DNA of 64,000 nt from Rubritalea marina DSM 17716 (GTDB taxonomy: Bacteria > Verrucomicrobiota > Verrucomicrobiia > Verrucomicrobiales > Akkermansiaceae): contig NZ_KB899251.1 in assembly GCF_000378105.1 (NCBI RefSeq), positions 124,001 through 188,000 of the forward strand, written 5' to 3'. Below the pieces are notes generated by a model that searched no databases, was not told the DNA's origin, and saw only the letters and a list, made by a program, of their open reading frames with translations. Numbering within the stretch: position 1 is the first letter of the stretch; every line of letters begins with the position of its first letter. Shown here one piece after another: positions 21,532 to 33,656 of this stretch. The translations under genes were made by a program, and so were the position numbers.

Positions 21532-22668
21532 ATGAGAGTTTTGTTAGTAGATACTTCATTTGCTGCTGTGCCAATTTATGAGGCACTACTTGAAATGGGG
21601 CATGATGTTTGGGTAGTAGGTAACCGTTCTGAAGATGTGCTTGCGCTGCGAGCTGGAGATCAATGGATTGATGAAAATTACAGCGATATTTTAGCTGTGC
21701 AATCGCATTGTGACAGTAATGAAATTGAGGCGATTGTACCCGGATGTACGGATGTATCTATTGAGACTTGCTGCAGACTTCAGGTGCCGAATAGTTCATG
21801 TGATACAGCAGATTCTAATGATATTTTAGCTGATAAGAAAAAATTTCGAGCTTTGTGTGCACGACTGAATTTGCCAGCCCCAAGGGAGGTTGATTTAGCA
21901 TCTTTCCCCCAAAAAGGTAATTACATATGTAAGCCAATTGATGCATTTAGCGGTAGAGGAGTATCTAAATTTAATGGGGAGGATATGAAGGCTTTATCCC
22001 ATTCCTGTGCAATTGCTGAGCAAGCCGGGTCAAATTATTTGATTGAGTCATATCACGAGGGGCAGCTCTATTCATGCAGTGCATTTATTGAAGACAAGAA
22101 GGTTCAAAAATCTTTCTATGTAAAAGAAGGCAGTTCAGTCGACGCTTATGCGGTAGACACCAGCTATGTCCTAGATGATATCGACCCGAATGTTGCTTCT
22201 TTGATGTCCGGTGCGATTGAAAAGATGGCTTCAGAGTTAAACCTGGTAGACGGCCTTTTTCATGTGCAATTTATAGTCGAATCAAAAGAGCCATATATTA
22301 TCGAAGTGGCCAGACGGTGTCCTGGTGATTTATATTCCCTATTGATCGAATTTACCACGGGGTTTTCATATGCATATAATTATGCAGCGTCCTTCACCTC
22401 AACGAAGCCAAGTAATTATTTAGATGAGGAGTGGAAATATATTCTTCGCCATACTGTTAAAAGTTTGAAGGAAGAAGTCTATTGGGGAGTGTTTTATAAA
22501 ACCCAGCCTAGGCTATTTGCTGAATTCCCGCTTATGAAGACAGGTGAAACTCTATTTCCCAAGGGTGGTAACCGAGCTTCTGTCCAGTTTTATCAATACG
22601 AATCTTTGGAGTCTTGCTCTGATGCTTATGCTGATTTTTTACGAAACGAAATATATAAATTACAATAG
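21532..22668 (+). CDS. ATP-grasp domain protein, carboxylate-amine ligase-like
   Basis: A 378-residue ATP-grasp enzyme, presumed to join a carboxylate to an amine through an acyl phosphate. It shows an N-terminal Rossmann-like domain (VLLVDTSFAAVPIYEALLEM), a DKKKFRALCARLNLPAP segment as in carbamoyl-phosphate-synthase-like ligases, an ATP-binding ICKPIDAFSGRGVSK loop and a metal-binding end (PYIIEVARRCPGD). The substrate is unknown. It precedes pseB by 11 bases, so it may acylate an amino sugar of this island. It is A+T rich with rare codons such as ATA. Confidence 0.75.
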   Translation: MRVLLVDTSFAAVPIYEALLEMGHDVWVVGNRSEDVLALRAGDQWIDENYSDILAVQSHCDSNEIEAIVPGCTDVSIETCCRLQVPNSSCDTADSNDILADKKKFRALCARLNLPAPREVDLASFPQKGNYICKPIDAFSGRGVSKFNGEDMKALSHSCAIAEQAGSNYLIESYHEGQLYSCSAFIEDKKVQKSFYVKEGSSVDAYAVDTSYVLDDIDPNVASLMSGAIEKMASELNLVDGLFHVQFIVESKEPYIIEVARRCPGDLYSLLIEFTTGFSYAYNYAASFTSTKPSNYLDEEWKYILRHTVKSLKEEVYWGVFYKTQPRLFAEFPLMKTGETLFPKGGNRASVQFYQYESLESCSDAYADFLRNEIYKLQ

Positions 22669-22679
22669 AATAGACATTC

Positions 22680-23681
22680 ATGCTTAACGATAAATCAATT
22701 CTCATCACGGGCGGTACAGGCTCGTTAGGTCAGGCACTAACAAAAACTATTCTCGAGAAGTGGCCAAATGTGAAGCGTCTTGTGATTTACTCGCGTGACG
22801 AGCAAAAGCAGTTTCAGATGGCTCAGGAATTTCCTCCTGAAAAATATCCAGCTATCCGCTTTTTAATTGGAGATGTAAGAGATTTGGATCGAATGAAGCG
22901 AGCCTTTAATGGCGTGGATTATGTGATTCATGCGGCGGCGATGAAGCATGTACATATCGCCGAATATAATCCAGATGAATGCGTTAAGACAAACATTGGA
23001 GGAGCTGAGAATGTCATTAAAGCTGCTCTTAGTTGTAGCGTGAAGCACGTGGTCGCCTTATCAACGGATAAGGCATGTGCACCGATCAACCTCTATGGAG
23101 CAACAAAGCTTGCCTCAGATAAATTATTTGTTGCTGCAAATAACATCACAGGTGAGCAAGATGTGAAATTTTCCGTTGTGCGTTATGGGAATGTTATGGG
23201 TTCGAATGGCTCAGTCATGCCATTTTTCTTGAAGAAGCGTGAGGGGGGGGTTTTGCCCATTACTGACCCTAATATGACCCGGTTCAACATATCTCTTGCG
23301 GACGGTGTAAAGATGGTACTACATGCCATGGAACATGCGTGGGGTGGCGAGTTGTTTGTACCCAAGATACCTTCTTACAGAATCACAGATATAGCCGAGG
23401 CAATAGGGCCTGATTGTGAACACCCTGTTGTAGGAATTAGACCAGGTGAGAAAATTCACGAAGAAATGATCACTAGTTCAGATTCATTTACTACCTATGA
23501 CCTAGGCGAATATTATGCGATCCTTCCTCAAGTGCCTAATTGGGATATTGAGAGTTATAAAAAACATTTTAATGCGGAGCTTGTTGAGCAAGGTTTTAAT
23601 TACAGTTCTGGCGAGAACGAAGATTTTCTTAATGTTGGAGAGCTACAGAAGCTGATCGATGATCATGTCGTTACTTCATAA
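22680..23681 (+). CDS. pseB: UDP-N-acetylglucosamine 4,6-dehydratase (inverting), PseB
   Basis: First step of pseudaminic acid synthesis: UDP-GlcNAc to UDP-4-keto-6-deoxy-L-AltNAc, with C5 inversion. The SDR Rossmann motif is ILITGGTGSLGQAL; HAAAMKHVHIAEYNP and STDKACAPINLYGATKLASD are characteristic of PseB/FlaA1. It ends with a GIRPGEKIHEEMI stretch typical of the family. Its length of 333 residues matches. It is followed by pseC after 20 bases. Confidence 0.93.
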   Translation: MLNDKSILITGGTGSLGQALTKTILEKWPNVKRLVIYSRDEQKQFQMAQEFPPEKYPAIRFLIGDVRDLDRMKRAFNGVDYVIHAAAMKHVHIAEYNPDECVKTNIGGAENVIKAALSCSVKHVVALSTDKACAPINLYGATKLASDKLFVAANNITGEQDVKFSVVRYGNVMGSNGSVMPFFLKKREGGVLPITDPNMTRFNISLADGVKMVLHAMEHAWGGELFVPKIPSYRITDIAEAIGPDCEHPVVGIRPGEKIHEEMITSSDSFTTYDLGEYYAILPQVPNWDIESYKKHFNAELVEQGFNYSSGENEDFLNVGELQKLIDDHVVTS

Positions 23682-23701: not shown

Positions 23702-24892
23702 ATGATACCATACGGAAAGCAATCAATTAGTGAAGAAGACATCTTAGCTGTTGTTGAAACGCTGCGATCTGATTTCTTGACGTGTGGCCCACGGGTTGAA
23801 ACATTCGAGCAAGAGTTTGCTGACTTTGTAGGAGCCAAGCATGCGATCGCCGTATGCAATGCTACCGCTGCATTGCACCTTAGTATGTTGGTAGCTGATA
23901 TTGGTTCTGCTGATCGAGTTATAACTAGTCCTAATACCTTTCTGTCTTCCGCAAATTGCTCCGCATTTGTAGGAGCTACGCCCGACTTCTGTGACATAGA
24001 TTCAGATACCTATACGATGGATCTTGAGTCGTTGAAGCAGGCGTGGTCCGAAGATGTTCGGGCTGTAATTCCTGTGGCCTATGCCGGACAGTCCGCAGAT
24101 ATGAAAGGGATTGCTGAGTTTGCCCGAGGTAAGTGCGCTATCGTCATTGAGGATGCTTCACATGGTACTGGAGGAGGTTTTTTTCAAGACGGTAAAGCTT
24201 GGAAACAGGGAGGCCATCCATGGGCGGATATGACGGTGTTTAGCTTTCATCCGGTAAAGACACTCACCACAGGTGAGGGGGGGATACTAGTTACCGATAA
24301 TGATGAATACGCGTCTAAAGCAAGACTCCTACGAACTCATGGCATGACTCGTGATTCGAATGCTTTTCAAGGACTAGGTTTGGACTCTCTGAGTCTTGGC
24401 GAACAAGGTCCATGGTATTACGAGATGCTTGAACTCGGCCATAATTTCCGCATCACTGACGTGCAATGCGCACTGGGATCTAGCCAACTTAAGCGCTTAC
24501 CTCACTTTATTAAACGCCGGCAGGAAATCGTTGCACTCTATAACGCAGCTTTCGCCGACATTGATTGGATTAAGACTCCAGGTATTCGCTCTGCCGAAGA
24601 TAAAGGTTTTATTTCGTGGCACCTCTATACCCTACAGATCGATTTCACCGCCATCGGTAAAACGCGTAGTGTAGTCATGGTTGAGTTGCGCTCCAAAGGC
24701 ATTGGTACACAAGTGCTCTACATCCCAGTTTACCTCCAACCCTACTACCGTAATTCCTACGGCTATAATCCTGGAAAATGCCCTAACGCTGAGCATTTTT
24801 ATAGTGAGGCATTGAGTCTCCCGCTCTACCCAGACTTATCAGACGAGGATGTAAAAAAAATCATCGCAGAAGTTTTAGAGTTGAGGCATTAA
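23702..24892 (+). CDS. pseC: UDP-4-amino-4,6-dideoxy-N-acetyl-beta-L-altrosamine transaminase, PseC
   Basis: A PLP aminotransferase of the DegT family that aminates the PseB product at C4. The opening IPYGKQSISEEDI and TLRSDFLTCGPRVETFEQ are PseC hallmarks. The PLP lysine is K186 in FSFHPVKTLTTGEGG. TQVLYIPVYLQPYYR near the C-terminus is also diagnostic. Its 396 residues are standard. It lies 4 bases before pseF. The product is normally acetylated by PseH, for which no separate gene was recognised here. Confidence 0.94.
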   Translation: MIPYGKQSISEEDILAVVETLRSDFLTCGPRVETFEQEFADFVGAKHAIAVCNATAALHLSMLVADIGSADRVITSPNTFLSSANCSAFVGATPDFCDIDSDTYTMDLESLKQAWSEDVRAVIPVAYAGQSADMKGIAEFARGKCAIVIEDASHGTGGGFFQDGKAWKQGGHPWADMTVFSFHPVKTLTTGEGGILVTDNDEYASKARLLRTHGMTRDSNAFQGLGLDSLSLGEQGPWYYEMLELGHNFRITDVQCALGSSQLKRLPHFIKRRQEIVALYNAAFADIDWIKTPGIRSAEDKGFISWHLYTLQIDFTAIGKTRSVVMVELRSKGIGTQVLYIPVYLQPYYRNSYGYNPGKCPNAEHFYSEALSLPLYPDLSDEDVKKIIAEVLELRH

Positions 24893-24896
24893 GGAT

Positions 24897-25601
24897 ATGA
24901 CTATGAAAGTTGCTATCATTCCTGCTCGCTCAGGCAGTAAACGAATTCCTCATAAAAATATTAAGGAATTCTGTGGTAAACCTATGATTGCGTGGTCGAT
25001 TCAGGCTGCTCTGCAATCTGGATGCTTTGATCACGTTGTGGTTTCGACCGATTCAGAAGAAATTGCAATGATTGCACGGGAGTACGGAGCTACCGTTCCA
25101 TTCTTGAGGCCTAAGGACCTCTCGGGTGACTTAGTTGGTACTATGCCTGTATTGACGCATGCGGTGTTAGAGATAGAGGCTGTCTTTGGGAGACATGTCG
25201 ATCAAGGCTGCTGCTTGTATGCTACAGCTCCTTTTGTGACATCTGAACTATTACAAGAGGGCTATTCAGTTCTAGAGAGTGATGTAAGCCTCGAGTTTGC
25301 GTTTAGCGTGGCTACATATCCATTTCCTATTCAGAGGGCTCTCCGACTCACTGGAAGAGGAAGAGTAGCGATGCTGGAGCCCGAAAATGAAAAGAAGCGT
25401 AGTCAAGATTTTGAAGAGTGCTACCATGATGCTGGGCAGTTTTATTGGTTTCGCCGAGATGCAGTATTTCAAAATGATGGATTTTTCAGTGCTCGCTCAA
25501 CTGGTGTGGTTATTCCGAGAGAGAGAGTTCAAGATATAGATACTCCAGAAGACTGGAGGTGCGCCGAACTTGCGTATGAATTACTTGAAAAGAAAAAGTG
25601 A
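24897..25601 (+). CDS. pseF: pseudaminic acid cytidylyltransferase, PseF
   Basis: It activates the nonulosonic acid to its CMP form. The CMP-sugar synthetase motif IPARSGSKRIPHKNIKEF is near the N-terminus. YATAPFVT and YHDAGQFYWF are specific to PseF as opposed to NeuA. Length is 234 residues. ATG codons at 24897 and 24903 are both possible starts. The next gene starts with GTG inside its stop (GTGA overlap), showing translational coupling. Confidence 0.92.
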   Translation: MTMKVAIIPARSGSKRIPHKNIKEFCGKPMIAWSIQAALQSGCFDHVVVSTDSEEIAMIAREYGATVPFLRPKDLSGDLVGTMPVLTHAVLEIEAVFGRHVDQGCCLYATAPFVTSELLQEGYSVLESDVSLEFAFSVATYPFPIQRALRLTGRGRVAMLEPENEKKRSQDFEECYHDAGQFYWFRRDAVFQNDGFFSARSTGVVIPRERVQDIDTPEDWRCAELAYELLEKKK

Positions 25602-26764
25602 AACCACTAGTAATTATTCTAACAGAAGGTGCGAAACTCTCTAATACGAGTGGTTATTATAGCCGTGCTCTTAAGCTTGCGAATGCCTGTGCCGCTCGTG
25701 GGGGGGATGCTATCATCCTGTCTGAATCCCACGGTGGTTATGGGGAGCAAAAGGGGGGTGAGGAAGGATTCGTAATGAATAATGAGAGTTTAGGGGGCTG
25801 GAGTAGTCGTTTACAGATGGCCGCAGCAGGTAGGCCAATTGAGTGGCTTGTGATTATGGGCTATAGCTTTTTCGAAAGACATAAATCTGTTTTCGTAAGT
25901 AAATCGAGTAAGGTTATGCTGGTTTCAGATGAAGTGTCTGAGGCCCCAAACGGGTGTGATGTTGTTCTTAATGAAACGGTAGAAAAATCTGTGTGGAAAT
26001 CGCAAGGTGAGGGGAGTGTTTTGAGGTTGTTGGGCCCTGTATATAGTCTAAATGCCCCAGATGGCATAGGCGCACTAAGGGTTTCCGCAGTATTATTTCA
26101 AAGGCTTAATATTGTCGTAGCAACAGCAGCAGATGGGTGGATGTCTTCAACGATAGACGACTTTGTTAGGAAGTTAGAGAAATTAGGGCACAGTGTACAA
26201 GTTGTCCATGAGGCTGATGAAATTGAACCTTGTGATGTGCTTTTTCTCCTCTCTTTTTGGCAATTGATTCCAGAAGATGTATTAGAAAAAAATGTGCATA
26301 ATATCGTCGTACACGAAAGTGATCTGCCTAGAGGGAAGGGATGGTCTCCTACGACATGGCAGGTGATACAAGGTCAAAACGAGATTCCAATAGTTCTGTT
26401 TGAAGCTGAGGCTAAAGTGGATGCTGGGAATATTTATATAAGGGATACCATTTTATTAGACGGGAGTGAGTTGGTGTCAGAAATTCGAGAGAAGCAGGCT
26501 AATGCAACATATTCTCTATGTTATTCATTCTTAGAAAGCTACCCAGAAATTATTGGAGAGTCTGTACCGCAATTAGGGGAAGAGAGCTTCTATGCACGCA
26601 GGGGGCCGAAAGATAGTGAGATAGATGTAGATTGTACTATCCGTGACCAGTTTGAATTGCTGAGGACTGTCGACAATACTGCTTATCCAGCATTTTTTTA
26701 TCATAGAGGGAATAAGTATGTTCTGAAAATTGAAAAAGATAAACATTATAGACCAGAGTGCTAA
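25598..26764 (+). CDS. fusion of a divergent PseG N-terminal half and a formyltransferase
   Basis: Residues ~1-155 follow the N-terminal half of PseG (UDP-sugar hydrolase): SGYYSRALKLANACAARGG corresponds to GHVMRC..LA, and LRLLGPVYSLN corresponds to its LLGPxYxLL end. Y20 occupies the position of the catalytic His, and the C-terminal GT-B half is missing. Residues ~165-315 are formyltransferase-like: VVHESDLPRGKGWSP (H239), WQVIQGQNEIPIVLFEA and VDAGNIY (D275), matching the Fmt catalytic His and Asp; the Asn two residues before the His is Val. Residues 315-388 form a small tail. It probably N-formylates a UDP-amino sugar from 10-formyl-THF. It starts with GTG, coupled to pseF. Confidence 0.75.
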   Translation: MKPLVIILTEGAKLSNTSGYYSRALKLANACAARGGDAIILSESHGGYGEQKGGEEGFVMNNESLGGWSSRLQMAAAGRPIEWLVIMGYSFFERHKSVFVSKSSKVMLVSDEVSEAPNGCDVVLNETVEKSVWKSQGEGSVLRLLGPVYSLNAPDGIGALRVSAVLFQRLNIVVATAADGWMSSTIDDFVRKLEKLGHSVQVVHEADEIEPCDVLFLLSFWQLIPEDVLEKNVHNIVVHESDLPRGKGWSPTTWQVIQGQNEIPIVLFEAEAKVDAGNIYIRDTILLDGSELVSEIREKQANATYSLCYSFLESYPEIIGESVPQLGEESFYARRGPKDSEIDVDCTIRDQFELLRTVDNTAYPAFFYHRGNKYVLKIEKDKHYRPEC

Positions 26765-26778
26765 CTAGAAGGACTATC

Positions 26779-27891
26779 ATGAGTAATAAAATTGAAGAGT
26801 CGGCCTCGATGGTTGTGGCGGCACTAGCTAATCAACTTAAGGCTGACGGTGTTGATGTTGTATCCTTGTCGATTGGAGACACACATTTTCCGTTAGATCG
26901 TGCTCTGCAAGCAGGCATTTCCGAGGCAATGTCAACCAACCGTACTCATTATTCACTGGCGCAAGGAGAAATGGACCTCAGGAATGCAGTGTCGAGAAGT
27001 TACAAAGGCACCTATTTGAGTGACGAAATAATCATAAGTCATGGTGTGAAGAATGGGTTGTATTCCTATTTTTTGGCTACAGAGCGTCAATCAGTATGCG
27101 CTATCGAGCCAGCATGGTTAGGCTATAAAGGGTTGTGTAGGCTTGCAGGAAAAAATTATTATGGAGTCAATAGGTATCAAAACAATTGGTTGGAATCATT
27201 GAAGGATTCTGAATTTGATATACTCATCATATGCAATCCCAACAACCCGGACGGCTATGTCTATAGAGATTCAGAACTCCAAACAATTCTTGAAATTGTA
27301 AAGGATAAGGGAGCTGAGCTTTTAATTGACGAAATATATAAGTTTTTCTCCTATGATCATGCTGTCGATAGTATGGCTAGGTTTAGAGGCCTTAAAAATG
27401 TGGTTCTTTTTGATGGTTTTTCGAAATCACATGCGATGACGGGATTACGAGTCGGTTACATTGCCAGTAAAAATGAAAGTCTTTGCCAACAGATTATCAA
27501 GGTGCAGCAGAACACGATTACCTGCGTGAATACGATTTCCCAGTATGGTTTAAGTCAAATAAATGAGTTAGATCGAGTAGTTTCAGGCTATGCAGCATAT
27601 TATGAAAAAAATCGCTCTTTAGTGTCTGAGATAATCCCTGAACTGTTGCCGTTTACTCCAGCTGGAGGCTTCTATTATTTTTTTGATTTAGGCCTTTTAG
27701 GAATCAAGTTGGATGCAAAAGACTTTTGTACGGGTCTTCTGGAACATGAGGCCGTAGCTCTTATTCCAGGGGGAGCGTATGGGAGTGGTTTTGATGATTA
27801 CGTTAGGCTTTCATTTTGTGTTGATACCGAAGAATTAAAAAAAGGGCTTAATAGGCTCAATAGCTATATTGAAAAATGCAAGGAACTATAA
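26779..27891 (+). CDS. PLP-dependent aminotransferase, class I/II
   Basis: A fold-type I aminotransferase like the aspartate/histidinol-phosphate group. Visible elements are VVSLSIGDTHFPL, HYSLAQGEMDLRNAV, IICNPNNPDGYVY, LLIDEIYKFFSYD and the PLP lysine K216 in FDGFSKSHAMTGLRVGYIAS. It ends with a GG(F/A)YYFFDLG substrate segment and VRLSFCV. I chose ATG 26779 because it is preceded by AGAAGG (26767-26772), a good Shine-Dalgarno that is rare in this window. It overlaps pseI by 16 bases. It is not a standard pse gene, and it may make an amino acid or keto acid used in the decoration. Confidence 0.85.
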   Translation: MSNKIEESASMVVAALANQLKADGVDVVSLSIGDTHFPLDRALQAGISEAMSTNRTHYSLAQGEMDLRNAVSRSYKGTYLSDEIIISHGVKNGLYSYFLATERQSVCAIEPAWLGYKGLCRLAGKNYYGVNRYQNNWLESLKDSEFDILIICNPNNPDGYVYRDSELQTILEIVKDKGAELLIDEIYKFFSYDHAVDSMARFRGLKNVVLFDGFSKSHAMTGLRVGYIASKNESLCQQIIKVQQNTITCVNTISQYGLSQINELDRVVSGYAAYYEKNRSLVSEIIPELLPFTPAGGFYYFFDLGLLGIKLDAKDFCTGLLEHEAVALIPGGAYGSGFDDYVRLSFCVDTEELKKGLNRLNSYIEKCKEL

Positions 27892-28898
27892 ATGTAAATG
27901 GGTTTAAAATTGGAGGGGCGGCGACATATGTAATTGCCGAGATTGGATCAAATTATAACCAAAGTTGGGAACTCGCTTTGGAATCGATCGATGCAGCTGT
28001 TGAGTCTGGCGCTGATGCAGTAAAATTCCAATCTCTAAACGTTGATAAGCTCTATCGTGATCCAAGTAAGAGTATCGTTGAACTACACAAGAAAATAGAT
28101 CTTAAGGAATCCTGGCATTATACTCTAGATGAATACTGTAAAAAGAAGGGGGTCACATTTTTTTCAGCCCCGACTTATTTTGATGCTATCGATTTATTAG
28201 AGGATATTGATGTGCCGCTATATAAACTAGCTTCTGCACAGATTGGAACCTTCCCTCAGTTGGTGAGGAAAGTTGCAAGTCTAGGTAAGCCGACTATAAT
28301 CTCAACGGGGATTGTTTCATATGCTGAGTTAGAGGGGGTAGTTAATATTTTTGAAGCTGAGAATAATCCAGACTATATCATCTTACATTGTAATAGTATG
28401 TACCCCACGCCATACGAGGAGGTTAATTTGGGGCGCATCGAGCTTTACCAGAAGATGTTTAACAAAATCGTGGGTTTTTCTGATCACAGCGATGGAGTAT
28501 ATACTGCAATAGCTGCTGTGGCCAAGGGCGCCAAAGTGATTGAAAAGCATTTTGCTATCGATAAAACATTGCCCGTACCTGATTCTCCATTTTCTTTAGA
28601 CCCTGACGAGTTTAAAAATATGGTAGAAGGGATTCGTATTACTGAAAAAGCGATCGGCTCCTTACCTAGAACACGACTAGAATCCTCTGAGAGTGAGTTC
28701 AAACAATCCATATTATACCGATTATTTGCCAAAAAAGATATTAAGAGAGGAGAATCTTTAAGTGTGGATGATGTTGATTTTTTGAGATATCCGGAAGGTA
28801 TCGATTGTCGTGATTTTGGTGTTTTTGAAGGAGCTTCATTGAGTGAAAATGTGGCAGTAGGCAGTTTGTTGTTACCCTCAATGTTCTCTTTGATATGA
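27876..28898 (+). CDS. pseI: nonulosonic acid synthase, PseI/NeuB family
   Basis: It condenses phosphoenolpyruvate with a 6-deoxy-hexosamine to give a nine-carbon nonulosonic acid. The TIM-barrel motifs are YVIAEIGSNYNQSW, ADAVKFQSLN, ILHCNSMYPTP and FSDHSDGVY. The C-terminal SAF/antifreeze domain spans residues ~285-340 (LFAKKDIKRGESLS). It reads YKLASAQIGTFPQLV where typical PseI reads YKIASFE-like and NeuB reads YKIGSGE-like, so its exact substrate is less certain. The start lies inside the aminotransferase end; the stop overlaps the next ATG (ATGA). Confidence 0.88.
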   Translation: MQGTINVNGFKIGGAATYVIAEIGSNYNQSWELALESIDAAVESGADAVKFQSLNVDKLYRDPSKSIVELHKKIDLKESWHYTLDEYCKKKGVTFFSAPTYFDAIDLLEDIDVPLYKLASAQIGTFPQLVRKVASLGKPTIISTGIVSYAELEGVVNIFEAENNPDYIILHCNSMYPTPYEEVNLGRIELYQKMFNKIVGFSDHSDGVYTAIAAVAKGAKVIEKHFAIDKTLPVPDSPFSLDPDEFKNMVEGIRITEKAIGSLPRTRLESSESEFKQSILYRLFAKKDIKRGESLSVDDVDFLRYPEGIDCRDFGVFEGASLSENVAVGSLLLPSMFSLI

Positions 28899-30088
28899 AG
28901 CAACGTGTGTTAATTTTGGCAATTGGCTGGGAGCAGGTTCCTCTGATTGAATTGTTAGCATTACGGGGTGATATCGACCTGTACGCTGTGCACTACTCCG
29001 AAGATTATTATAAAGGTGTCGAGTACAAAGAGGTCTTGATTGCTGACATGCTAGATTTTACGGAAATACTAGCCTTTGCGAAAAAAATTAGACCAACAGC
29101 TGTCATCTCTGACCAGGACGACTATGCTTACTTGGCTCAGTCATATGTAGCTACGGAGTTTGGGCTGCCAGGCCCCAGTGTGGATATTGCTGAGTTAGCA
29201 ACGAATAAGTACGTTCAACGCAAGCGTTGCCAGAAGATGGGTATAAGGGTTCCACGTTATGAGCAATGCCGTTCGGCTGAAGATTTGAAGGGCTTTGCTC
29301 AACGATGTGGTTACCCGCTGATTGTGAAGCCTGTGGATGCGCGTGGTAGCTTTGGAGTATCCAAAGTATCCAGTGCCGACGAGGTCACAGAGGCTTATAT
29401 GGAAGCATACAGAAACAGTATATCAGGATTGGTTATTGCTGAACAATTTATTGAAGGTGATGAAATTACTGTGGACGGATACTGTGTGGGTGGAGAGCCC
29501 ATGTCCATAGCCTTAGCTACGAAGTCGAAGCTAGGTGATGGACTGCAAGTTGCGATCGATATAGAATATCCAGGAGCTCTGGATAAGAAGTTGTACGAAA
29601 GAGCGATGCGAAACAATGAGGTAGTTTGTAGAGGCTTAGGATTTAGCTATGGCATGACGCATGCTGAGTACCTAATTGATTCTAAGGGGCATATTTATCT
29701 TGTTGAAGCTGCGAATCGTGGTGGTGGGTGTTTTACTTCCGAGCTCATAGTACCTAAGGTGAGTGGCGTAGATTTAGTTGAAGAATTAGTATTGAATGCA
29801 CTTGGGGAAAGCCAATTTGATGGATCTGAGATTGTAGTGGATAGGAACCAGGTGATTTTGAAATTTTTCACTTTTGAATCAGGTGTCATAAAATCGATAA
29901 ATGGACTAAATAAACTAGAGGTTGACCCCGATGTGTTAGAGTATCGATTAGCTTTCAAAGAGGGAGAGGTGATAGCGCCTATCACAAACGATGCAGACCG
30001 CCACGGTTTTGTGATTGTTCATGACAAGAAGGATGCTAGACGGAAAGCTGATCAAGTGATTGCCTCTATTACGATAGAGTATGAATAG
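28895..30088 (+). CDS. ATP-grasp ligase (carboxylate-amine ligase family)
   Basis: This 397-residue ATP-grasp protein has an N-terminal Rossmann-like domain (RVLILAIGWEQVPLIELLAL), DQDDYAYLAQSYVATEFGLPG, NKYVQRKRCQKMGIRVPRYE, an ATP-binding loop IVKPVDARGSFGVSKV and a metal-binding end IYLVEAANRGGG. It resembles carbamoyl-phosphate-synthase-like ligases found in LPS and nonulosonic acid loci. Translation is coupled to pseI by a 4-base overlap, so it likely acts on the same product or its precursor. The acyl donor is unknown. It is a different protein from the ATP-grasp at 21532. Confidence 0.78.
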   Translation: MKQRVLILAIGWEQVPLIELLALRGDIDLYAVHYSEDYYKGVEYKEVLIADMLDFTEILAFAKKIRPTAVISDQDDYAYLAQSYVATEFGLPGPSVDIAELATNKYVQRKRCQKMGIRVPRYEQCRSAEDLKGFAQRCGYPLIVKPVDARGSFGVSKVSSADEVTEAYMEAYRNSISGLVIAEQFIEGDEITVDGYCVGGEPMSIALATKSKLGDGLQVAIDIEYPGALDKKLYERAMRNNEVVCRGLGFSYGMTHAEYLIDSKGHIYLVEAANRGGGCFTSELIVPKVSGVDLVEELVLNALGESQFDGSEIVVDRNQVILKFFTFESGVIKSINGLNKLEVDPDVLEYRLAFKEGEVIAPITNDADRHGFVIVHDKKDARRKADQVIASITIEYE

Positions 30089-30165: not shown

Positions 30166-30867
30166 ATGTCATATTTCAAGGATCAGATAATAAGTGTCAT
30201 AAAGAATAATAGAATATCTTCGGTAGAAGTGGCTGATGCACTTGGGAAATCTGGTGTAATTGAAGGTTTACGCCCTCTTGTCTCCAAAAAGTTTACGGTT
30301 GGTGAAGTGAGTTACATCTATGGTCATAGCAAGTCAAATTGGCCTATTCATGAACAAGGTGAGGTAGTGAAAAAAGGTGGAGTTCTGTATGTTGATACAT
30401 TTGATTGCGGGAATCATGCAGCATTTGGCGACATTGTGGCAAAGTATTTCATACTTTATAAAGAGATTGAGGGAATCGTAGTGAATGGTTTGATGCGAGA
30501 TATCCATTCATTGATCAAGCAAGATTACCCGATCTGGGCTCAAGGCGTGACACCACTGGGTTGCTACAATAAAGAGGTGCAGCCAACGGCAGAAGTTCTT
30601 CAATTAGCTGAGGAAAATAGGCGAAAGATTGAGGGTGGTGTAGTAGTTTGTGATGACTCAGGCTGTACTCTGATTAGAAAGGAACAACTCACTAAAGATA
30701 CCTTGAAGCGCCTTCAATTTATCGAGTTGCAGGAGGACATATGGTACTACTGCATAGATACCCTAAAGTGGTCGACATATAAGACTATCTGTTTGAAGGC
30801 TTATCTAGGAGATCCTGAGGTGTTACCTGAAGTGTTGAGGCAGAAATTAGAGGAATACAATGTCTAG
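30166..30867 (+). CDS. RraA / HMG-aldolase-like protein
   Basis: The family includes RraA (RNase E inhibitor) and 4-hydroxy-4-methyl-2-oxoglutarate aldolases/oxaloacetate decarboxylases. Here the motifs are SSVEVADALGKSG at residues ~18-30, DTFDCGNHAAFGDIVAKY and VVNGLMRDIHSL, with the catalytic Arg-Asp pair present. A further ~70 residues follow the core (233 in total against ~160 for RraA), closer to the aldolase branch. It is 77 bases after the ATP-grasp gene and one base before the amidohydrolase gene, which suggests a two-step conversion of a small keto acid. An RNA-degradation role seems unlikely here. Confidence 0.7.
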   Translation: MSYFKDQIISVIKNNRISSVEVADALGKSGVIEGLRPLVSKKFTVGEVSYIYGHSKSNWPIHEQGEVVKKGGVLYVDTFDCGNHAAFGDIVAKYFILYKEIEGIVVNGLMRDIHSLIKQDYPIWAQGVTPLGCYNKEVQPTAEVLQLAEENRRKIEGGVVVCDDSGCTLIRKEQLTKDTLKRLQFIELQEDIWYYCIDTLKWSTYKTICLKAYLGDPEVLPEVLRQKLEEYNV

Positions 30868-31674
30868 ATGAGAATATTTGATTTCAACATCCATTTGCCG
30901 GCGCCGATCGAAGCAACGGTGAATGATCGTACGGCGACGGAGATGTCAGCTAATCATGATGAACTTATTAAGAGGTTAGACCAAGTTTCTTTTCTGCCTA
31001 AGTTGGCAGGAGCTAACTTTATGGTTTTTAATTCAAGCTTATTTTTAAGTGGGGATGCTTTTGCTGTATATGCCCGTAGAAAGGTAAAGAAAGTTGCGTT
31101 GACTATTCTAATCGACTTTAGGGACTCTGACTGTATTCGACATATAGAGGCTGCCCGTGCAGCGGGCACTCATTGTATTAAGTTTCACTCATACCAACAG
31201 CAGATCACTATTGATGATTATAAGGTGATAGTAGAATTATGTAAGTATGCAGAATCGCTAAATATGGCCATTTGCCTCGATGGTAGTTATGGAACTGCAT
31301 ACATGACTGAACATGATACAGTAGATTTTATCTGCTGTGTTGCTCGTCATATAACTGAAGTTCCAGTGATTGTGTTGCATAGTGGTGGCTTAAAATGCTT
31401 GAGCATATGCTTATTGGCGTTAGATCGGCCAAATATCTATGTGGAAAGTTCAATTTCACTTACCTGGTATTTGGGGTCAAGTGTAGAACAGGATTTGGCC
31501 TATATGTATAAAAAGTTAGGGCCAAATAGAGTGATGTTTGCATCCGATGACCCTTATTTTAAATTTGATGAAGCATTGAATGATGCTCAATCTTTCTACA
31601 ATAGGCATAAATTCTCTGATGAATTTTTAGATAGGGTGTTTTATCAGAACGCGGTAGATTTATTGGAGTTGTAG
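30868..31674 (+). CDS. amidohydrolase-superfamily (Amidohydrolase_2-like) protein
   Basis: A 268-residue TIM-barrel protein. The N-terminus reads FDFNIHLP where the family usually has D-x-H-x-H, so the first metal His is Asn (N7) and the second is kept (H9). Later positions IKFHSYQQQ, VLHSGG and FASDDPYFKF correspond to the other metal ligands. Family members hydrolyse amides and lactones or decarboxylate aromatic and keto acids. Its start directly abuts the RraA-like stop, and pseG begins two bases after its stop. The function is unknown; the changed first ligand could mean one metal site or loss of activity. Confidence 0.7.
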   Translation: MRIFDFNIHLPAPIEATVNDRTATEMSANHDELIKRLDQVSFLPKLAGANFMVFNSSLFLSGDAFAVYARRKVKKVALTILIDFRDSDCIRHIEAARAAGTHCIKFHSYQQQITIDDYKVIVELCKYAESLNMAICLDGSYGTAYMTEHDTVDFICCVARHITEVPVIVLHSGGLKCLSICLLALDRPNIYVESSISLTWYLGSSVEQDLAYMYKKLGPNRVMFASDDPYFKFDEALNDAQSFYNRHKFSDEFLDRVFYQNAVDLLEL

Positions 31675-31676
31675 CT

Positions 31677-32684
31677 GTGGGGAAGCAAGGTAGTCATAGG
31701 GTTGTTTTTTTTACTGAGCTTGGTGCGCGCATTGGTTACGGGCATGTGATGCGGTGCCAGACGCTTGCTAAGTGTCTAGTAGAGCTTGGTGTTTCGGTCA
31801 GGTTCTGTCTGTTCTCATACGACTGGAGAGAGGATCTTTATGATACTGGCTATGAGCAGTCCTACCATTCATGGCATGAAAATGAACTTCTGTTTAGTGA
31901 ACTGGTGAAGGAGGATACAATTGTGGTGGTTGACTCTTATCTCGCTAATCTAGATTCATACAAGTCGCTTAAACTTGCAGCTCAACGAGTAGTTGTAATA
32001 GATGATTATGACCGGATTGAGTACCCAGTTGATTGTGTTATTAATCCGAATATCTACTATCAAAGAAATGATTATCGATATAGCGGTGTGAGTTTTGCTG
32101 GAGGCCCGCGATATTGTTTGTTGAGAGATGAGTTTCATTTTGAACGTAATGAAATCCGTGTGCGAGAGAGTATACATGAGGTTCTCATAACAGTGGGTGG
32201 TAGTGATGTTAGGGAGCTGATTCCACGTTTGTTAGGTAAGGTGGTGGCAGTTTACCCTGAAATAAATTTTCATTGTGTGTGTGGTACGAGCGCCTATCAG
32301 CTCGACCTTGAAAGTTTAGCTTCGGCCTACAGCAACCTTAGGCTTTATGGTCGTGCTTCAGCGGTTGAAATGAGAAACTTGATGCAAAAAGCTGATTTGG
32401 CTATTACAGCCTGTGGACAGACACTGGGAGAGTTATCCTACATGGGAGTTCCAATGATCGGGATTTGTGTTGATGTTGATCAAGAGAAATTTAGAGACTA
32501 TTATGTCTCCAATGGTTTATTTTTATCTAGAATCGATTGGGATGATGTGGACTGGCTTGAAAAGATAAAAGAGGATTTAAATAAATTGAGTTCTTATAAC
32601 TTACGTAATAGAATGACGCATAACCTACATGGGTTGATTGATAGCCAGGGTGCAATAAGGGCTGCTAGAGTTATTTTAGGTTAA
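31677..32684 (+). CDS. pseG: UDP-2,4-diacetamido-2,4,6-trideoxy-beta-L-altropyranose hydrolase, PseG
   Basis: It removes UDP from the pseudaminic acid precursor. The catalytic signature GYGHVMRCQTLAKCL contains H23. The complete GT-B-like fold is present: the N-terminal half ends with GPRYCLLRDEFHF, and the C-terminal half has VLITVGGSDVRELIPRLL and ADLAITACGQTLGELSYMGVP. Its 335 residues are full length. The start codon is GTG, two bases after the amidohydrolase stop. This intact PseG makes the PseG-like half of the formyltransferase fusion redundant for hydrolysis. Confidence 0.9.
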   Translation: MGKQGSHRVVFFTELGARIGYGHVMRCQTLAKCLVELGVSVRFCLFSYDWREDLYDTGYEQSYHSWHENELLFSELVKEDTIVVVDSYLANLDSYKSLKLAAQRVVVIDDYDRIEYPVDCVINPNIYYQRNDYRYSGVSFAGGPRYCLLRDEFHFERNEIRVRESIHEVLITVGGSDVRELIPRLLGKVVAVYPEINFHCVCGTSAYQLDLESLASAYSNLRLYGRASAVEMRNLMQKADLAITACGQTLGELSYMGVPMIGICVDVDQEKFRDYYVSNGLFLSRIDWDDVDWLEKIKEDLNKLSSYNLRNRMTHNLHGLIDSQGAIRAARVILG

Positions 32685-32975: not shown

Positions 32976-33656
32976 ATGAGTAAAAATATTCTAGTAGTGG
33001 CAGCACATGCTGACGATGAGATCCTCGGTTGTGGTGGTACCATGGCCAAGCATGCCGATGCAGGTGATGATGTCGCAGTGATATTTCTCACCAATGGAGT
33101 TGGTTCACGCGGTGCTGGAGAAGAAGATTCTCAGAATGTTGAGCTTAGAGATTGTTCAGCTCAAAAAGCGTTGGGTATTGTTGGGGCTCGTTCACTCACA
33201 CGCTTGGAGCTTCCAGATAACGCCATGGACAGTGTCTCACGGCTCGAAATTATTCAAGCGTTGGAGCCGTATATAAAATCATTTCAGCCAGAGACCATCT
33301 ACACCCACCATGGTGGTGATCTTAACATAGATCACCGCCGAGTACTCGAAGCTGTCCTAACTGCCTGTCGTCCTCAGCCAGGTAGTTTTCTTTCGCAAAT
33401 TTACTCCTTCGAAGTAGCTTCTAGTACAGCCTGGCAAGGATCTTCTCTCAGTTCCGCATTTTCACCTAACCACTACATAGACATCAGTCAGCAACTTGAC
33501 CGCAAGCTGACAGCTCTCGAAGCCTATAGTGAGGAAATGCGTGATTTTCCACATGCACGCTCTATTAAAGCTCTAGAAGTACAAGCTAAATTTCGAGGAG
33601 CTCAAGTCGGACTAGAGGCAGCAGAAGCTTTCGTACTAGAAAGATCTATCGGATAA
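32976..33656 (+). CDS. PIG-L family N-acetyl-sugar deacetylase
   Basis: A zinc-dependent de-N-acetylase of the PIG-L/LmbE family. The signature AAHADDEILGCGGTMAKH is at residues ~9-26, and YTHHGGDLNIDHRRV supplies the later zinc ligand region. Its 226 residues are normal. In surface-polysaccharide loci such enzymes remove acetyl groups from GlcNAc-type or nonulosonic sugars. It follows a 291-bp spacer and precedes the capsule-type transferase by 16 bases. The substrate cannot be told. Confidence 0.85.
   Translation: MSKNILVVAAHADDEILGCGGTMAKHADAGDDVAVIFLTNGVGSRGAGEEDSQNVELRDCSAQKALGIVGARSLTRLELPDNAMDSVSRLEIIQALEPYIKSFQPETIYTHHGGDLNIDHRRVLEAVLTACRPQPGSFLSQIYSFEVASSTAWQGSSLSSAFSPNHYIDISQQLDRKLTALEAYSEEMRDFPHARSIKALEVQAKFRGAQVGLEAAEAFVLERSIG

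Follow-up and report, generated by a model that had tools for sequence, protein, structure and literature searches.

What do an RraA-like protein and an amidohydrolase-fold protein, encoded by abutting genes, do inside a nonulosonic acid locus? Bacterial sialic-acid-like sugars differ mainly in the groups carried on their nitrogens, and the synthesis of several of these groups has not been worked out. A first-pass annotation of a 64,000-nucleotide stretch from Rubritalea marina DSM 17716 (hereafter the window) had proposed that the two proteins form or remove a small keto-acid-derived acyl group that decorates the sugar. We followed up this proposal through the residues of each protein, the surrounding genes and the recurrence of the arrangement in other genomes.

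The two genes lie inside a modified pseudaminic acid operon

The plus strand of the window carries, in order, genes for PseB, PseC, PseF, a PseG-N/formyltransferase fusion, a class I aminotransferase, a NeuB-family synthase, an ATP-grasp protein with a LAL_C2 domain, the RraA-like protein, the amidohydrolase, PseG and a PIG-L protein (Table 1). PseB, PseC and PseF all passed their equivalog models. The pair does lie in a nonulosonic acid locus, inside a Pse operon. The synthase fell under both equivalog cut-offs (257 against 340 bits for PseI, 274 against 400 for NeuB), and no match to the PseH N-acetyltransferase was found at E <= 1e-3 in the genome, which is 95.5% complete. The ATP-grasp protein carries both domains of an LAL-type ligase, ATP-grasp_4 and LAL_C2, and its closest solved relative is the L-amino acid ligase 3VOT. 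The best PDB relatives of the aminotransferase are aspartate aminotransferases. The PIG-L protein is far closer to deacetylases than to GalB (5CGZ), which it matches weakly, and genes of this type are also frequent in Pse loci that have no RraA or amidohydrolase. We rejected the idea that RraA, amidohydrolase and PIG-L form a gallate/protocatechuate LigK/LigJ/GalB set, as the PIG-L protein is a general feature of such Pse loci and looks like a deacetylase.

Table 1. Genes of the R. marina locus, with positions in the window and the profile match behind each assignment.
Feature	Position	Strand	Evidence
PseB, inverting UDP-GlcNAc 4,6-dehydratase	22680..23681	+	TIGR03589 500.7 bits, cut-off 407.75
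PseC aminotransferase	23702..24892	+	TIGR03588 445.2 bits, cut-off 423.5
PseF, CMP-Pse synthetase	24897..25601	+	TIGR03584 315.2 bits, cut-off 205.7
PseG-like N-terminal part fused to formyltransferase domain; putative N-formylation replacing PseH	25598..26764	+	Formyl_trans_N 33.4 bits, cut-off 26.1
PLP class I/II aminotransferase; putative 2-oxo to 2-amino step on aldol product	26758..27891	+	PF00155 135.7 bits
NeuB/PseI-family nonulosonate synthase, divergent	27876..28898	+	NeuB Pfam 246 bits
ATP-grasp carboxylate-amine ligase with LAL_C2; putative acid attachment to amino group	28895..30088	+	ATP-grasp_4 49.4 bits, cut-off 27; LAL_C2 54.3 bits, cut-off 29.4
RraA/HMG-CHA-aldolase-like protein, 233 aa; putative class II pyruvate aldolase (or oxo-acid decarboxylase)	30166..30867	+	PF03737 71 bits, cut-off 24.5
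Amidohydro_2 TIM-barrel protein, 268 aa; putative lactonase or (de)hydratase on aldol-derived acid	30868..31674	+	PF04909 44.6 bits, cut-off 26.4
PseG-like UDP-sugar hydrolase	31677..32684	+	TIGR03590 145.7 bits, just below cut-off 153.55
PIG-L family de-N-acetylase	32976..33656	+	PF02585 95.3 bits

The operon is tightly packed. From PseF through the ATP-grasp gene each gene overlaps the next (by 7 and 16 bp at the two ends of the aminotransferase gene), a 77-bp gap precedes the RraA gene, and the amidohydrolase gene ends 2 bp before the start of PseG. The two genes in question abut as first described, with 0 bp between them; they share a reading frame, and the TAG stop at 30865-30867 is all that separates them. 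Both open reading frames exceed their Pfam cut-offs, both lie on one strand between PseI/ATP-grasp and PseG, and the arrangement recurs elsewhere, so the pairing goes beyond chance.

Three further features of these loci were observed. A second ATP-grasp protein, PylC-like, is encoded at 21532-22668, directly upstream of PseB. The G+C content dips over the glycan locus at 17000-41000, to about 0.39-0.46 against 0.50-0.54 across much of the flanks, as is typical of surface-polysaccharide islands that vary horizontally. An apparently full-length PseG-formyltransferase fusion occurs in another genome (G620, L053), in a Pse locus adjoining flagellin genes.

The RraA-like protein retains the residues of a pyruvate aldolase

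The RraA/HMG-aldolase-like identity held up, with the previously noted GLMRD motif at residues 108-112. The protein belongs to the same fold family as the Pp HMG/CHA aldolase (LigK/GalC; 3NOJ), and its residues D89, R111, D112 and N58 align with the metal and catalytic residues D102, R123, D124 and N71 of that enzyme. The Asp(metal)/Arg-Asp aldolase motif is intact, with a D-to-R spacing one residue longer (D-X21-R-D). K136 is the likely equivalent of K147 in the HMMER alignment; MAFFT aligns that stretch differently. In the HMG/CHA aldolase, the R123K substitution lowers kcat on HMG 181-fold, and N71A or K147A lowers it more than 1000-fold (PMC5065237). Because the catalytic and metal residues of 3NOJ are kept, the RraA-like protein is probably an active pyruvate-enolate enzyme. 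It differs from the HMG/CHA aldolase in its long C-terminal extension and its setting in a glycan locus, and it scores far below the cut-offs of the LigK/PcmE CHA aldolase equivalogs (45.1 against 304.5 bits for TIGR02798 and 54.5 against 179 for NF006731).

The amidohydrolase is altered at two usual metal-ligand positions

For the second protein, the amidohydrolase fold and the substitution of Asn for the first His were both confirmed: its N-terminus reads MRIFDFNIH (D5, N7, H9), and H9, K105, H107, H171 and D227 are kept. In an alignment of 13 relatives, nine have His where the window protein has N7, one has Leu and one Gly; Asn is confined to the window and Rhodohalobacter. A further change, not mentioned in the first-pass annotation, affects the end of strand 5, where Asp138 occupies another position that usually supplies a metal ligand. 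Neither the HxH of strand 1 nor the His of strand 5 by which metal-dependent Amidohydro_2 proteins bind metal is found in the window protein, which has N7 and D138 at these positions. The strand-5 Asp is common to the five ATP-grasp-linked amidohydrolases described below, three of which (G258, G964 and G1013) keep the HxH; most others of the 13 relatives have His, the exceptions being Sphaerotilus (Asp) and G187 (Cys). The five form a clade with weak support (59/38; 61% of bootstrap trees).

A search with an AF2 model of moderate confidence (pLDDT 66, N-terminus under 50) returned amidohydrolases as the top PDB matches, the second-best being 2-pyrone-4,6-dicarboxylate hydrolase (4I6K). The TIM-barrel fold is common to the window protein and to LigJ/LigI-type Amidohydro_2 and COG3618 enzymes, which include a hydratase, lactonases and decarboxylases, but identity to 4I6K is 14% and N7 and D138 stand where His is usual. 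None of the NCBIfam models matches the protein, and the LigJ 4-oxalomesaconate hydratase is absent from its PDB sequence matches and from the listed fold matches. With two usual metal-ligand positions lost, the amidohydrolase could be non-catalytic or have an unforeseen function.

The amidohydrolase recurs with an ATP-grasp ligase and more than one type of aldolase

According to the first-pass annotation, a pair found only here would count against its proposal. The pair is present in another Pse locus (L009), in a genome (G258) that belongs to the same phylum but is otherwise unrelated; there an RraA gene overlaps a gene for the same amidohydrolase type by 4 bp. These are followed by genes for a methyltransferase, a PseG-like protein, an ATP-grasp protein, further proteins, an HMGL aldolase fusion and a PseI that is above its cut-off. 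The HMGL protein exceeds the cut-off of the 4-hydroxy-2-oxovalerate aldolase subfamily (252 against 229 bits). Since the G258 RraA has no equivalent of D102 and shares only about 20% identity with its counterpart in the window, the two may represent separate recruitments.

The amidohydrolase also occurs in three loci with no RraA beside it. The locus of Rhodohalobacter sulfatireducens (L002) encodes a synthase, a membrane protein, an ATP-grasp protein, the amidohydrolase, PseG and PIG-L, with identities to the window proteins of 56% for the synthase, 32% for ATP-grasp, 33% for the amidohydrolase, 31% for PseG and 42% for PIG-L. The ATP-grasp domain there is clear, with LAL_C2 under its cut-off (19.5 against 29.4 bits). 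This genome has two RraA homologues outside the locus, one adjoining enolase-family genes and neither in a nonulosonate cluster. In G964 (L076) we found PseF, a PseG-like protein, ATP-grasp, the amidohydrolase, two methyltransferases, an HMGL fusion and a synthase, and in G1013 (L077) ATP-grasp, an HMGL aldolase, a methyltransferase and the amidohydrolase, with no PIG-L. Since no nonulosonate synthase was found within about 57 kb of the G1013 genes, the module is not specific to nonulosonates.

Taken across the window and these four loci, the amidohydrolase type with Asp at strand 5 accompanies an ATP-grasp ligase of LAL_C2 type in 5/5 (the sub-cut-off Rhodohalobacter domain included). Aldolases of pyruvate type occur in 4/5 (RraA in the window, RraA and HMGL in G258, HMGL in G964 and G1013). 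A PseI/NeuB synthase together with a PseG-like gene is found in four, all but G1013, and in three (G258, G964 and G1013) the amidohydrolase has neighbouring methyltransferases that belong to a single family. The conserved unit is the amidohydrolase with the ATP-grasp ligase, and the aldolase can be RraA or at least one other, interchangeable type; with Rhodohalobacter lacking RraA in its locus and G964 and G1013 using an HMGL-type aldolase, the RraA/amidohydrolase pair recurs but is not itself that unit.

The module is rare but recurrent. Among 25 other PseI-type loci of the phylum, some truncated at contig ends, none had RraA or this amidohydrolase type, and ATP-grasp gave one weak match only. 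A scan of genome contigs matched Rhodohalobacter alone. Partly overlapping surveys with amidohydrolase queries and profiles covered the genomes of 58 relatives, 241 from the phylum and 384 from the class, together with sets of 247, 196 and 394 around Rhodohalobacter; beyond the loci described, they returned just three distant amidohydrolases, outside such clusters. Viral contigs, searched with window, G258 and profile queries, yielded no relatives. Plasmids held no close amidohydrolase; of five distant ones inspected, none lay beside an annotated RraA, and their surroundings were mostly catabolic.

Other proteins of these loci also stood out. Upstream in the Rhodohalobacter locus (L002 3079-6128), a fused 2-oxo-acid dehydrogenase (TPP) E1 alpha+beta adjoins a lipoyl and PglD-like hexapeptide acyltransferase protein, which resembles a dehydrogenase complex in which a sugar N-acyltransferase has taken the place of the catalytic part of E2. 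At L009 7148-9079, L076 8929-10860 and L077 10695-12827, the 4-hydroxy-2-oxovalerate-aldolase-like domain is fused to, or lies next to, a C-terminal region that is conserved yet has no convincing Pfam or PDB match. Related predicted membrane proteins of 480-500 aa with no Pfam match (L076 11972-13474 and L002 7272-8714) each directly follow the nonulosonate synthase in these two distant genomes.

A candidate pathway to an amide-linked acid

We propose, with a probability of roughly 0.6, that RraA and the amidohydrolase carry out two steps of a side pathway whose product, a small carboxylic acid, is joined by the ATP-grasp ligase in amide linkage to a pseudaminic-type sugar or its UDP-precursor. 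Judging from its conserved active site, RraA would add the enolate of pyruvate to another carbonyl compound, giving a 4-hydroxy-2-oxo acid. In the window the class I aminotransferase may convert the 2-oxo to an amino group, and the related loci would use their aldolase and methyltransferases instead. The amidohydrolase would act on the aldol-derived acid, most plausibly by opening a gamma-lactone, or by (de)hydration, to leave a free carboxylate that the ligase would attach to an amino group of the sugar or UDP-precursor. The formyltransferase-like gene and the PIG-L deacetylase would determine, for each sugar nitrogen, whether it carries a formyl group, an acetyl group or neither. A pyruvate-type aldolase, a modifier of the alpha-carbon (aminotransferase or methyltransferases) and a carboxylate-amine ligase together make up a logical route by which an unusual amide could arise. 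Gamma-lactones form readily and spontaneously from 4-hydroxy acids, and a lactone would block the ligase, so a lactonase role would explain why the amidohydrolase is tied to it. Both this role and a hydroxy-amino-acid product made via the adjacent aminotransferase are guesses.

The part of the first-pass proposal that concerned formation and decoration drew support from the retained aldolase residues, the ATP-grasp ligase in all five loci, the pyruvate-type aldolase in four and the absence of PseH; the part that concerned removal did not. Because an ATP-grasp ligase is present, we favour building and attaching an acid over removing one. Against the side-pathway model stand the Rhodohalobacter locus without RraA, the G258 RraA without a D102 equivalent and with low identity to that of the window, G1013 without a synthase, the two altered metal-ligand positions of the window amidohydrolase, the weak support for the amidohydrolase clade and the decarboxylase activity known from RraA proteins. 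In a more specific version that we hold to be doubtful, RraA acts as a synthetic aldolase (for example, from two pyruvates to 4-hydroxy-4-methyl-2-oxoglutarate), the aminotransferase gives a branched hydroxy-amino acid, the altered amidohydrolase keeps the acid free, and ATP-grasp attaches it to the pseudaminic-type sugar. Such a group would be an undescribed N-acyl group of a nonulosonic acid, an outcome we regard as equally tentative.

Known pathways pair a CHA aldolase of the RraA type with an Amidohydro_2 (LigJ) or PIG-L (GalB) hydratase, and a LigK/LigJ-like catabolic or salvage couple of aldolase and hydratase would remove or recycle a keto acid instead of building an acyl group. We think this improbable. 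The window RraA is indeed nearest in profile to 3NOJ, and the weak GalB match of the PIG-L protein points the same way, but no aromatic-degradation genes lie near the packed Pse operon that holds the pair, the amidohydrolase matched no LigJ-type model or structure and keeps company with ATP-grasp rather than catabolic genes, and the PIG-L protein is of a deacetylase-like kind frequent where the pair is missing. It is hardly credible that the RraA-like protein regulates RNase E, or has some other regulatory function with no link to sugar synthesis: the fold family is shared, yet the protein scores 30.6 bits against a cut-off of 136 with the RNase E regulator model NF006875 and has its aldolase motif intact.

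Two other explanations concern the chemistry. RraA could be an oxo-acid decarboxylase and the amidohydrolase a second decarboxylase, trimming the acid before ligation with no C-C bond formed. Decarboxylation of oxaloacetate is a further activity open to RraA proteins, HMG/CHA aldolases carry it out via the same enolate (PMC5065237), and several structurally solved Amidohydro_2 enzymes are decarboxylases. This reading is nevertheless unlikely, given that parallel loci with the same module have 4-hydroxy-2-oxovalerate-type aldolases, which argues for aldol chemistry, and that the metal positions usual in Amidohydro_2 relatives are altered. Alternatively, the amidohydrolase might be a sugar N-deacylase, or a pseudoenzyme partner, exposing an amine for ATP-grasp together with PIG-L, with RraA incidental. 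The Rhodohalobacter gene order, with the amidohydrolase directly between ATP-grasp and PseG and no RraA, is consistent with this, as is the regular presence of PIG-L deacetylases in these loci. We know of no Amidohydro_2 protein that deacylates sugar nucleotides, however, the amidohydrolase lies beside a methyltransferase and near an aldolase in G964, G258 and G1013, and the G1013 module has neither a nonulosonate synthase nor PIG-L, which together make this role quite unlikely.

Synthesis of an amide-linked acid thus remains our preferred reading, and the putative acid module of the Pse locus would be a new variation on the known diversity of nonulosonate N-acyl groups. The recurring kit of amidohydrolase and ATP-grasp ligase, usually with an aldolase, offers a genomic handle for predicting and finding N-linked groups. 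If the proposal is correct, RraA-family proteins gain a biosynthetic job beside the roles for which they are mostly known, in catabolic aldol reactions and RNase regulation, and strains with the module are predicted to carry nonulosonates with a pyruvate-derived amide.

Comparison with known nonulosonate systems

Like the canonical PseBCHGIF pathway, the window has PseB, PseC and PseF above their cut-offs and homologues of PseG and PseI. It departs from that pathway in lacking PseH, in its divergent synthase, and in its added formyltransferase, ATP-grasp, aminotransferase, RraA and amidohydrolase. The FlaB glycan of Treponema denticola is 7-(2-methoxy-4,5,6-trihydroxyhexanoyl)amido-Pse, whose acyl group is the one expected from an aldol reaction of pyruvate and glyceraldehyde followed by reduction and O-methylation. 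At the level of glycan structure, this expected route fits the aldolase, methyltransferase and ATP-grasp content of G258 and G964, whereas the window module has an aminotransferase in place of a methyltransferase. Among open papers, we found none linking a 4-hydroxy-2-oxovalerate aldolase with pseudaminic acid.

Precedents for an ATP-grasp enzyme in flagellin glycans are a carboxylate-amine ligase gene of a Clostridioides difficile type B flagellin glycan locus (PMC5207246) and sfmE of Shewanella oneidensis. The Shewanella sfmABCDE genes encode a synthase, a TPP enzyme, an SDR, a methyltransferase and the ATP-grasp protein, and the flagellin there carries mono-N-acetyl Pse (Pse5Ac) with an extra methylated moiety that its authors infer to be nitrogen-free (PMC3765264). 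Although the Shewanella cluster relies on the TPP enzyme, SDR and methyltransferase and has neither RraA nor amidohydrolase, it combines, as the window does, a nonulosonate synthase, an ATP-grasp_4 ligase and a keto-acid-type enzyme.
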